Shown: piece by piece, positions 56,536 to 60,515 of the stretch
How the letters are laid out: each line of letters starts with the position of its first letter
Numbering within the stretch: the stretch's first letter is position 1
From: an uncultured Acinetobacter sp.
GTDB taxonomy: Bacteria; Pseudomonadota; Gammaproteobacteria; Pseudomonadales; Moraxellaceae
DNA length: 64,000 nucleotides
Assembly: GCF_947624825.1 (NCBI RefSeq)
Contig: NZ_CANQLZ010000002.1
Coordinates: 1-64,000 of the forward strand
Direction: 5' to 3'
The notes under the pieces: model-generated
The model's input: the letters and a program-made list of their open reading frames with translations, nothing else
Told to the model about the DNA's origin: nothing
The model's database searches: none
Program-made: the position numbers and the translations under genes

Positions 56536-57192
56536 TCAAAAAGACAAACTCACATTGCCTTGATCGGTTGTCAATTCAGCTTCAAGGACTTGATCACCAC
56601 GGCATTTCAGTAAATACGATACTGTAGAGCTATAGCTCATTTGCACAGGCATCTTGCTATGGAAATCTGCGGTGTAATAACCACAACGACCACGATTAAT
56701 ACTCATACCTTGTAAAATAAAAGGTTGATCGTTGGTCGACTGAATTTCTAGAATATATTCAATTGCCCCTTGTACATTAAATGCAGATTGAGACTCACGA
56801 CTGGTAATTTGAGCACGAACAGATAATGCAGGCTGTTCCATTTCCATAGGAATATGATTGCTATATTCAGCATTGTTTGGATCAAGATCTGACTCCATCA
56901 TGGATTTGAGCGCTTCAGGATATTTTTCCCAACTCTCAAGAAATGACTGAGCTTGTTTGACCGCAGCAGGCAAATACTCGGTATCATTTTCTACAATCTG
57001 AGTTAAGGCTTGTACCTTGGCTTCAACCTCTTCCTTGCTATATGGAGCATATTTAGATTGCTCCTTTTGTGTAGCAGTATTGGATGAGCTGTGTTCAGCT
57101 TGATCTGTAGCACTTTGTTGAGTTGGCTGATTGTTTTGACTACACGCGAGCAGTAAAGTTGAAAGTGCTACTGTAAAAAGTATTTTTTTCAT
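56536..57192 (-). CDS. Element-encoded lipoprotein, unknown
   Basis: The 218-residue protein has a lipoprotein signal MKKILFTVALSTLLLAC, a polar Gln/Ser/Thr-rich linker to about residue 50, and a beta-rich C-terminal half with two cysteines. No family is recognised. It is the last gene of a tight four-gene operon of small envelope proteins (gaps of 2, 0 and 12 nt). A surface or exclusion role is possible but unproven. Confidence 0.68.
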   Translation of the reverse strand: MKKILFTVALSTLLLACSQNNQPTQQSATDQAEHSSSNTATQKEQSKYAPYSKEEVEAKVQALTQIVENDTEYLPAAVKQAQSFLESWEKYPEALKSMMESDLDPNNAEYSNHIPMEMEQPALSVRAQITSRESQSAFNVQGAIEYILEIQSTNDQPFILQGMSINRGRCGYYTADFHSKMPVQMSYSSTVSYLLKCRGDQVLEAELTTDQGNVSLSF

Positions 57193-57204: not shown

Positions 57205-57432
57205 TTATAACTTAGGTCGAATAACGACGAACCAAATGAATAATAGGATCAAGATACCTCCTACAATTTTACCGATGACTGGAAACATTACCGCAGGCCA
57301 CACTAAGCCTTGCCCCAAATTGTAAGTAAATGGCTTGTAGTTATACTGCCCCCAAAAGTGTTGATAGATGGCAAAGAAAAAACCAATCACCAAGTAGCTA
57401 CTAATCACCCATGTCTTAATATTTGAATTCAT
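57205..57432 (-). CDS. 75-residue two-span membrane protein
   Basis: The product has two hydrophobic helices (TWVISSYLVIGFFFAIYQHFW and IGKIVGGILILLFIWFVVI) separated by a polar loop with Tyr and Trp. Its ATG directly abuts the stop of the upstream 42-residue ORF (TAAATG), so translation is coupled. No family is recognised. Confidence 0.68.
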   Translation of the reverse strand: MNSNIKTWVISSYLVIGFFFAIYQHFWGQYNYKPFTYNLGQGLVWPAVMFPVIGKIVGGILILLFIWFVVIRPKL

Positions 57433-57563: not shown

Positions 57564-57818
57564 TTATTCCTTCATGCATTGATAGGACACATTGACCATA
57601 TCCATTTGGAAGGATTCAGTTTGCTGCAAGGTATAGAGATTTTCTTTAAGCCCATCTTCCCCATATTTATTTTCAAGTTTGTCGTAGATACATGAACAGG
57701 TATTGCCATCAATGCCGCCTGTTTTACAACCACTAATAAACTGACGTTCGGTCTTACTGGCGCAACCTGAAGACATTAATGCAACAGAGATGAGTACAAG
57801 TGAAGTTTGAATTTTCAT
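57564..57818 (-). CDS. Small cysteine-rich lipoprotein
   Basis: The 84-residue protein has a lipoprotein signal (MKIQTSLVLISVALMSSGC) and a mature part of about 66 residues with four further cysteines (SGCKTGG, GNTCSCIYD and YQCMKE). This pattern is typical of small disulfide-bonded periplasmic domains. GGGGA precedes the ATG pair, and I chose the second ATG for spacing. It is the first gene of the four-gene envelope operon. Confidence 0.7.
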   Translation of the reverse strand: MKIQTSLVLISVALMSSGCASKTERQFISGCKTGGIDGNTCSCIYDKLENKYGEDGLKENLYTLQQTESFQMDMVNVSYQCMKE

Positions 57819-58009
57819 CATTTCCCCTAATTTTTTATTGTGTTATTTGATGTGTAATAAATTTTGCTGAATGGACTAACGTGTAGATGCAACAAAACCG
57901 TCTAAGGCTAGACAGCGTTCAGATCATTCAAATAAGCAAAAATTTATGAATGCTGCTAATGCAACAAAGGAATAGAAAATCGTTTTAGGGAAAATAATAA
58001 AGATAGAAA

Positions 58010-58246
58010 GTGCTGAGTCATGGCGACTACTCCTTAGGTTTAAGAAGTTCTACCAATTACTGTCAAATAATGGTGGCAGAACGAAAGAGGGTTGACAGAC
58101 TGAACCTAAGAATCAGCACACCCGAAGGTGTCCCCCTCCCGTTCTACCGCAGAGGGAGCACGAGTACTCACACCAAAAGAAGGGATCTTTTAGTGCACTT
58201 AGGAAACGGTCTGTCAAAACCGACTGACGATGTAGGTCAGCAGTCG
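58010..58246 (+). ncRNA. Candidate large structured RNA with pseudoknot
   Basis: The stretch can fold with several long, mostly perfect helices. P1 is GTGCTGA/TCAGCAC (58010-16/58113-19). P2 is a 10-bp CTTAGGTTTA/TGAACCTAAG (58033-42/58101-10) with one G-U pair, which favours the plus strand. P3 is GTTCT..ACCA/TGGT..AGAAC (58047-55/58071-82). A perfect 9-bp helix, TTGACAGAC/GTCTGTCAA (58092-100/58209-217), reaches out of the P2 loop to form a pseudoknot. Hairpins at about 58118-58131, 58136-58158, 58175-58191 and 58221-58246 follow. The overlapping ORF has a GTG start, no ribosome site and low-complexity content. I cannot assign an Rfam family. Confidence 0.65.
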
Positions 58247-58448
58247 AATGATAAATTTAAGGGTGGGTTTAGTCAATCAAGCAATATTGGAAAAACAAGT
58301 AAAATCAAAGATTGAAGCGTATGAAAAAAAGTTTTTGGTAAAATTCTAAGATGGGTATGGATCTATATTAAATCATTTTAATTGCTATAGAATTGGTACT
58401 CATACTTTATGATCATTAAAATGTATATATTTACGTAACGGGGAAAAA

Positions 58449-60515
58449 ATGAAGGGTGAAGCAAAACAATTTCTGAAATTTATTGATGGCTCGGATAAAA
58501 GATTTATCATTCCTGTTTACCAGCGTAACTATAGTTGGCAGAACAAACATTGTGCTCAGTTACTTAATGATTTAAAAGGGTTAATTAAAAAGCCTGATGC
58601 CCCTCATTTTTTTGGTAGTATTGTTTCAAGCCATATGCAAGGCGGCAAAAGAGAAGATTTTTTAATTATTGATGGGCAACAACGGTTAACGACCATATCA
58701 ATTTTGTTGATTGCTATTGTGGATTTACTGAAGCATAAAAAAGTTATTCCTAAAGATGATCGTTTAATTGAGAAAATCACCAAAAAACATCTAGTCGATG
58801 AGTATCAAGAAGATCAGCGGAAAATAAGATTAAAGCCAATCAAGGATGACTGTAAAGCTTTCGATGCATTGTTTGGTGATGAATCTGATTTTGTTGATGA
58901 TTCTAATGTAACGTCAAATTTTAGATATTTTAGAGACAGAATACTGAATGAAAATATCGACATTGATGATTTGTATGATGCAATTTCACGACTACAAACA
59001 ATTGATATTTTCCTAGAAAAGGATGATGACCCTCAGCTTATATTTGAAAGCTTGAACTCAACGGGACTTGAACTTGAGGAAGGGGATAAAATCCGAAATT
59101 TCATTTTGATGGGGCTTTCTTCTGAATTACAAGAAAAATATTATGAAGCTTTTTGGAACAAAATTGAGAAGAATACCCATTTTAAGGTTAGTGATTTTTT
59201 CAAAGATTACTTAACCTTAAAACTAAATCGTACAGTCGTTATTAAAGATATCTATTTTACTTTCAAAGATTATGTGAAAAAGAATAATGATGATGTTGAG
59301 GTACTATTAAAAGATTTGCTAGAGTATTCAAATCTTTATGCAATAATTTTGAATCCGATGCAATATCAGAACAGTTTTACCGCTGTGTTGGTACGGCTGA
59401 GTCAGTTAGAATTTACCGTGATATTTCCAGTCGTATTGGCGATTCTAAAACGTTGGAGTGAAAAAAATCTTACCGATCAAGAGGTCACTGAACTTCTAAG
59501 AGTGACGGAAATATTTTTATTTAGACGTTTGATTGTTGGTCTAGCCACGAATGCTTTGTCTAAAATTTTTGCAACTTTAGATAAAGATGTGACTAAGAAA
59601 GCACAATCTAGCCAATTGGCATCCTATGCTGAAATTTATAAATATGTGCTGTTAAATAAAGAGGAATCAAGTCGTTTTCCTAATGATGATGAATTTGAGC
59701 AAGCTCTTTTTAGCCGTAACATTTATGCCATGAGTTCGAAAAATAAAGCATATTTATTTAGTTTTCTAGAAAATGAGGAAAGCAAAGAACAAATTAATGT
59801 AATTGAAAGAATTAAAGATGGAACATACACCATAGAGCATATCATGCCCCAAACGCTTTCTCCTGTTTGGCAAAAAGAACTGGGTGAAAAATCACAACAG
59901 ATTCACGAGCAATGGTTGCATACTCTGCCAAATTTGACATTAACTGGTTATAACAGCAAATATAGTAATCGACCTTTTAAAGATAAATTAGACGTTGAAA
60001 ATGGATTTAAAGACAGTAATTTGCGTTTAAATCAATATGTAAGAGAATGTCTAAAATGGACGGAAGAAGAGCTGGTTGAAAGACAAAGCCGCCTATCAAA
60101 GAAATCACTTAAATTATGGTATTACCCAACAACAAGTTATGCTCCACCTGTAGAGGAAACGAATGAATATTTACTGGAAGATGACTTTGATTTTACAGGA
60201 TACACTTTAGTATCTTATACCTTGTATGATGTTGAATCTAAAGTACAATCATGGAAAGAAATGCAGATAGATGTCGTAAAATATTTATTAGAACAACACA
60301 CAACGAAAATTATGAGTTTATGTGCTGATCAAAAGTTTTATGATCTTTCCTTGCTTGAAACGACAAATAATTTTACTGAAATCAGTAGGTCGGTTTTCTT
60401 ATACACAAATTGTTCAACGAGAACCAAAATAAATATTCTTAAAAAAATATTTGAGCAGTGTGATGTTGAGCAATCAGAATTAGGTTTTTTAATAAAAAAG
60501 GATAGTAATGTTTAA
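58449..60515 (+). CDS. DUF262/DUF1524 (GmrSD-like) putative defence nuclease
   Basis: The 688-residue protein has an N-terminal DUF262 domain with VYQRNYSW (23-30) and the nucleotide-binding motif D75GQQR in FLIIDGQQRLTT. Near residue 460 it has a DUF1524-type HNH nuclease segment, YTIEHIMPQTLSPVW, followed by LPNLTLTGYNSKYSN. This is the single-chain GmrSD architecture, a family of modification-dependent restriction enzymes against phages with altered bases. GGGGAAAA supports the ATG. It lies just downstream of the structured RNA candidate and is AT-rich like its surroundings. Target specificity is unknown. Confidence 0.85.
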   Translation: MKGEAKQFLKFIDGSDKRFIIPVYQRNYSWQNKHCAQLLNDLKGLIKKPDAPHFFGSIVSSHMQGGKREDFLIIDGQQRLTTISILLIAIVDLLKHKKVIPKDDRLIEKITKKHLVDEYQEDQRKIRLKPIKDDCKAFDALFGDESDFVDDSNVTSNFRYFRDRILNENIDIDDLYDAISRLQTIDIFLEKDDDPQLIFESLNSTGLELEEGDKIRNFILMGLSSELQEKYYEAFWNKIEKNTHFKVSDFFKDYLTLKLNRTVVIKDIYFTFKDYVKKNNDDVEVLLKDLLEYSNLYAIILNPMQYQNSFTAVLVRLSQLEFTVIFPVVLAILKRWSEKNLTDQEVTELLRVTEIFLFRRLIVGLATNALSKIFATLDKDVTKKAQSSQLASYAEIYKYVLLNKEESSRFPNDDEFEQALFSRNIYAMSSKNKAYLFSFLENEESKEQINVIERIKDGTYTIEHIMPQTLSPVWQKELGEKSQQIHEQWLHTLPNLTLTGYNSKYSNRPFKDKLDVENGFKDSNLRLNQYVRECLKWTEEELVERQSRLSKKSLKLWYYPTTSYAPPVEETNEYLLEDDFDFTGYTLVSYTLYDVESKVQSWKEMQIDVVKYLLEQHTTKIMSLCADQKFYDLSLLETTNNFTEISRSVFLYTNCSTRTKINILKKIFEQCDVEQSELGFLIKKDSNV

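Follow-up and report, generated by a model that had tools for sequence, protein, structure and literature searches.

Organization of the locus

The window, as we call the whole 64,000-nt stretch of Acinetobacter DNA that was analysed, contains at 58010-58246 a 237-nt region which an earlier note, made from the letters alone, had described as a structured RNA of the plus strand. On the minus strand the order of elements is a promoter-like site, the target segments a1 and b1, a C4 antisense RNA, the targets a2 and b2 at the ribosome site of a leader ORF, and a small lipoprotein gene. All features in this and the next two paragraphs lie on the minus strand. The promoter-like sequence TTGACT-17-TATCAT (58248..58276) has 10 of 12 consensus matches and would start the leader transcript; such sites are no commoner than chance, and the argument for this one is its position, not its score. 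The c4-a1b1 element (58203..58254) follows, with the hairpins CTGAC-CTACATC-GTCAG and CGGT-TTTGACAG-ACCG. The loop of the latter contains the a1 target, TTGACAGAC (58209..58217), a 9-bp complement of the C4 a' segment, and the b1 target, CCTAAG (58198..58203), is a 6-bp complement of the C4 b' loop. The C4 RNA itself (58069..58154) has helices P1, P2 and P3, with b' at 58112-58103 and a', CTGTCAA, at 58098-58092. P1 is formed by GGTAGAAC and GTTCTGCC; the RNA also has a UUCG hairpin, the b' loop TTCTTAGGTT and the 3' end GCCACCA. The GG at the 5' end of P1 and the 3' CCACCA are possible RNase P sequence features.

The 3' strand of P1, GTTCTGCC (58075..58082), is shared between two partners, 58141-58148 in the C4 fold and 58047-58054 in the a2 hairpin. 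The second of these partners is another GGTAGAAC copy (58047..58054), which competes for the strand. The a2 target, TTGACAG (58060..58066), occupies the loop of the hairpin ATTA-TTTGACAG-TAAT. Next come an anti-Shine-Dalgarno segment, CTTCTTA (58041..58047), in a hairpin with TAAGGAG, and the b2 target, AACCTAAGGAG (58030..58040), which overlaps the Shine-Dalgarno sequence and is a 10-bp complement of the b' loop (nine Watson-Crick pairs and one G-U). The near-perfect 10-bp helix of the earlier note is most likely this b':b2 pairing.

The leader ORF, MTQHFLSLLFSLKRFSIPLLH, has 21 codons (57956..58021, with its ATG at 58021). Behind it lie genes for an 85-aa small lipoprotein with the lipobox ..SGC (57564..57821), for a 75-aa predicted membrane protein, whose place after the lipoprotein is conserved in many homologues (57205..57432), and, third in the operon, for a 218-aa lipoprotein (56536..57192). 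The 85-aa lipoprotein gene is the likely regulated gene. An intrinsic terminator at 57916-57897 was considered as an attenuator and rejected, its hairpin and T run being unconserved in homologues.

Family and strand of the RNA

The C4 family first came to light in phages P1 and P7. The region was scanned against all Rfam families, at gathering cut-offs and then at E values up to 1, as the earlier note had proposed. C4 antisense RNA (RF01695) was found at 58154-58069 on the minus strand with 64.5 bits (cut-off 45; E 3e-10 for the whole window) and was the sole family above cut-off in the region. The c4-a1b1 family (RF03163) matched 58254-58203 on the same strand with 21.4 bits and E 0.005, below its cut-off of 46.7.

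The original proposal was a pseudoknotted new noncoding RNA of the plus strand, perhaps a mobile-element RNA of the HEARO/omega-RNA or GOLLD kind. In its favor, inverted repeats give helices on either strand, and the 86-nt core does fold modestly on the plus strand (z = -2.50, vs. -4.42 on the minus strand). Over the whole 237 nt, however, the minus-strand fold has z = -4.56, with 0 of 200 shuffles as good, while the plus-strand fold has z of only -1.26, with 24 of 200 shuffles as good; the inverted repeats do exceed chance, on the minus strand. The plus strand had been chosen on the strength of a G-U pair; in the core helices of 61 homologues there are 298 G-U cells if the minus strand is read and 9 if the plus strand is read, and standard pairs make up 97.9% and 80.0% of cells, respectively. 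The promoter-like site, the ribosome site and the conserved ORF are all on the minus strand as well, and the Rfam scan gave no match to HEARO, omega-RNA or GOLLD at gathering cut-offs or at E ≤1. We consider a plus-strand RNA of this kind extremely improbable. The 101-aa ORF of the plus strand was also set aside; it has stops or frameshifts in every relative except the closest, and its reading frame is unconserved.

Several particulars of the earlier description were correct. GTTCTACC does occur twice, at 58047-58054 and 58141-58148, and 58092-58100 is perfectly complementary to 58209-58217 over 9 bp. The latter pairing, taken for a pseudoknot, exists, but it is really C4 a':a1 on the minus strand, and in place of a single pseudoknot there are two mutually exclusive helix sets together with antisense/target complementarities. 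The switchable fold was rightly foreseen, the 3' strand of C4 P1 being able to pair with either GTTCTACC copy. What stands, then, is a structured noncoding RNA with a switchable fold in a mobile element; what falls is its assignment to the plus strand and to a new pseudoknotted class. We class the RNA as a new C4 family member in which the target is a variant one and a competing helix is conserved; it does not constitute a new RNA class.

Conservation across Acinetobacter

Of 150 genomes sampled from the genus, 129 contain C4 (E ≤1e-6), with up to 26 matches per genome. The comparison sample comprised 164 distinct C4 loci, of which 61 representatives were aligned. For the C4 helices of these 61 loci, 97.9% of cells were paired, and 219 double-change cells were counted vs. 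50.9 in shuffles; in the three-helix fold with its b' loop and a' joining strand, both sides had changed at 19 of 27 pairs. The a':a2 complementarity was similarly maintained in the aligned loci (98.6% of cells paired, with changes on both sides at five of seven pairs). The helix between the P1 3' strand and the downstream copy, taken with the inner a2 stem, was paired in 93.9% of cells and had 104 double-change cells, as against 28.3 in shuffles; slid controls gave no more than 11. Because the P1 and copy helices both covary, one C4 strand covaries with two mutually exclusive partners.

Complementarity of b' to b2 of at least 7 bp was found by ungapped search at 73% of the 164 loci, vs. 11% with permuted partners. 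Counted by columns, b':b2 was only 61.9% paired, a low value because loop lengths differ, and it is the ungapped search that bears the point; judged from these sequences, b':b2 complementarity is specific to each locus. Complementarity of at least 7 bp was found for a1 at 93% of loci (33% permuted) and for b1 at 73% (10% permuted), and an anti-Shine-Dalgarno helix of at least 5 bp at 85% (40% in shuffles). Shuffles and permutations retain column make-up or partner pool, not relatedness, and since relatedness stays in them, these figures are controls and not probabilities. The leader ORF had pN/pS 0.34 over ten homologues, indicating purifying selection, and its length was unchanged in close homologues.

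The C4 identity, the strand, the competing helix, the cis complementarity, the conserved leader ORF and the lipoprotein linkage (below) are all shown by comparison. The region is very probably a minus-strand C4 antisense RNA module like that of phage P1, lying within an Acinetobacter integrative element, whose leader, with two possible folds, precedes a lipoprotein operon.

Genes adjoining the module

The 85-aa lipoprotein family was present in 58 of 150 genomes. Each of the 30 family loci fetched had a C4 a short way upstream, in the same orientation; in two genomes that carry many C4s, a C4 preceded 8 of 10 family members by 236-353 nt. As C4-linked members served as seeds for the family, the linkage is strongest for close relatives. 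The 85-aa lipoprotein had no Pfam family, no convincing PDB sequence match and no significant fold match; its structure model is predicted to be all-helical (mean pLDDT 82). Besides the lipobox, the family has conserved cysteines, C32, C42, C44 and C82.

Upstream, at 58449-60515 on the plus strand, is a GmrSD-type (DUF262) protein gene that PADLOC matches to Orf5/HEC-06. The DUF262 neighbor claimed earlier is therefore present, but it is divergent and outside the C4 unit. Few of the related C4 loci have a near-identical GmrSD copy upstream, for which reason the gene was rejected as a partner of C4 and is better seen as occupying a variable cargo slot, unrelated to the C4 unit.

A predicted two-state leader

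Two global folds of the window leader are nearly equal in predicted energy. With the C4 helix forced (state A), the leader had a predicted energy of -83.7 kcal/mol, and the free fold, in which a1b1 pairs with a'b' and the copy hairpin forms (state B), had -84.2 kcal/mol, minimum-energy folds leaving out kinetics and proteins. When the copy was removed, the a1-paired fold was predicted to be 3.8 kcal/mol worse than C4. In predicted ensembles, a short window transcript favored C4 P1 (15.6 expected pairs), and the full window leader favored a1b1:a'b' (13.8 pairs) with the copy helix (7.7). For the full leaders of 114 loci with cis targets, 83% were predicted to be a1b1-paired and 15% C4-folded; for transcripts ending at C4, the corresponding values were 60% and 39%. 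The alternative-state fold of one TetR-linked locus had z = -7.8. Bistability of the leader is thus a prediction, backed by covariation in both helices.

We propose that a single promoter yields a leader with two possible folds. In state A the C4 domain, with helices P1, P2 and P3, would form, and RNase P may cut at the P1 stem, which resembles a tRNA acceptor and carries a 3' CCACCA, freeing a C4 RNA of about 77 nt. Free C4 would pair in trans, through a'/b', with a2/b2 where the ribosome binds the leader ORF, turning off its translation, and the downstream lipoprotein operon would presumably be turned off with it by polarity. Polarity of this kind is familiar from P1 and P7, in which a translation block of such a leader ORF silences the downstream gene. 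State B would be favored after the copy strand, 58054-58047, had been transcribed, if the order of events is as we suppose. Here a1/b1 would bind a'/b', the 3' strand of C4 P1 would bind the copy, and a2 would be displayed in a hairpin loop; such a molecule would yield no C4.

C4 leaders and TetR genes

A second gene family was found behind C4 in the same two C4-rich genomes, G137 (loci L018 and L170-L208) and G008 (loci L169-L213). There, one TetR family (E below 1e-70) has 32 members, and every one of them begins 273-322 nt downstream of a C4 on the same strand, a position that a random gene would occupy with a chance of about 0.2%; seven weaker-scoring TetR proteins are not so placed. The proteins behind C4 have a TetR_N domain and share a helix-turn-helix. 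A search of the window's own genome found no member of this family.

Eleven TetR regulators able to drive the opaque-to-translucent switch of A. baumannii have been described, four of them stochastically activated; the main text of that report makes no mention of antisense RNA (Perez-Varela et al. 2022, PMC9802203). If each gene is taken as 1 kb, positions estimated from AB5075 locus numbers place all 12 published TetR loci (the 11 and one pseudogene) within 30 kb of Group 1 sRNAs (described below); with 1.018 kb per gene, 9 of the 12 lie within 35 kb. For random genes, p for such proximity is about 0.001 or below. These published positions suggest that the C4-linked TetR proteins may be the ABUW_1645-type TTTR regulators of the switch, which affects colony type and virulence. 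More tentatively, bistable C4 leaders could be a general ON/OFF device of Acinetobacter, in which the state of each TetR protein (probably a TTTR) and each small lipoprotein depends on a C4 leader of its own; phenotypic heterogeneity would then have a domesticated phage immunity RNA behind it. We put this forward as a possibility that falls somewhat short of even likelihood.

Possible roles of C4 in cis and in trans

By the definition used, 61 of 187 C4 loci, e.g., L170, L178 and L206, lack both a2 and b2. As these are about a third of the loci, trans-repression is not the sole function of the family. Such loci retain a1 (80% vs. 24% permuted), b1 (62% vs. 6% permuted) and the copy helix (70% vs. 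45%). Their b' loops are highly diverse. Tandem arrays of three C4 copies in a row, each copy with a distinct b' loop, were seen in G137 (G137:C1:232520-233098, L200) and G008 (G008:C1:2707289-2707979, L210); after each array comes a further C4, in front of a TetR gene. Another C4 in the genome of the window (G000:C36:19385-19465) scores 44.4 bits, just under the cut-off, and has its own a2/b2 before an ORF; a second ORF there appears replication-related.

The retention of a1/b1 and the copy in the absence of a2/b2 favors, as far as sequence conservation can tell, a cis switching role, and it bears on two other explanations. One holds that C4 acts mainly in trans immunity, free C4 silencing matching leaders on incoming related elements and not its own operon. 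P1 and P7 employ C4 in this way in heteroimmunity (PMC12197685), the module is carried on mobile elements, and the diversity of b' loops would suit such a role, as would the finding that, within a genome, the best partner of a C4 with a cis b2 is mostly its own target. Many modules, however, are apparently chromosomal and stand before TetR genes, and the many loci that keep a1/b1 and the copy without a2/b2 point to a role in cis; we judge a mainly trans function to be rather unlikely. Less likely still is a reading in which the second GGTAGAAC copy remains from a duplication, or is simply part of the a2 hairpin, and competes with C4 P1 to no regulatory end. State B is a predicted fold only, and the copy-hairpin fold of phage P1 is about 5 kcal/mol less stable than its C4 fold, both of which would fit a leftover; against this, the copy covaries strongly with the C4 strand and is kept in loci that lost a2 and b2. 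A leader that switches in cis remains our preferred reading.

Comparison with known systems

C4-like sRNAs were already known in A. baumannii, without targets in the published main text. In strain AB5075, expression of 21 C4-like Group 1 sRNAs was reported, with apparent processing at a GG motif; trans targets were proposed for them, but the main text gives no targets and does not recognize Region 1 as a1/b1 (Weiss et al. 2016, PMC5320573). As described there, they share with the window RNA a C4-like core, an upstream hairpin with a CUACAUU-like loop and multicopy occurrence in the genus; they differ in that here cis targets and downstream gene families are identified. They are the largest sRNA group reported in AB5075, and the main texts of the papers found assign them no targets. 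What is new is the placing of C4 in cis-acting, predicted bistable leaders that are systematically linked to lipoprotein and TetR families. From the present comparison the C4-like sRNAs gain targets in cis, a set of defined genes downstream and a two-state mechanism open to testing. The cis targets and the systematic linkage to two gene families should be of interest to specialists; should the TetR genes prove to be the published TTTRs, a concrete cause would be offered for the stochastic activation of the latter, a question in Acinetobacter biology.

Immunity of the satellite phage P4 likewise depends on an antisense RNA, the CI RNA, with complementary partners upstream and downstream in its own leader, but the CI RNA belongs to a different RNA family from C4. 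The C4 RNAs of P1 and P7 (RF01695, RF03163) have the same fold, the same order of promoter, a1/b1, C4 and a2/b2, with a ribosome site under the last, and the same placement on the target's strand. In the annotation of phage P1 the elements a1, b1, c4, a2, b2 and icd follow in the order seen in the window and with similar spacing, and a1 and a2 of P1 likewise contain TTGACAG. Phage P1 also has, around a2 (L168 4417-4445), a near-complete competing helix, CCTGCCACC/GGTAGCAGG, with one mismatch and a stability about 5 kcal/mol below that of C4, as noted above. The targets differ. In the immI operon of P1 and P7, icd is followed by the antirepressor gene ant, whereas in the window the 21-codon leader peptide is followed by the small lipoprotein operon. 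In sum, the window leader is a C4 leader of the P1 and P7 kind that differs from them in its target and in an extended competing helix, by which it is predicted to be bistable.
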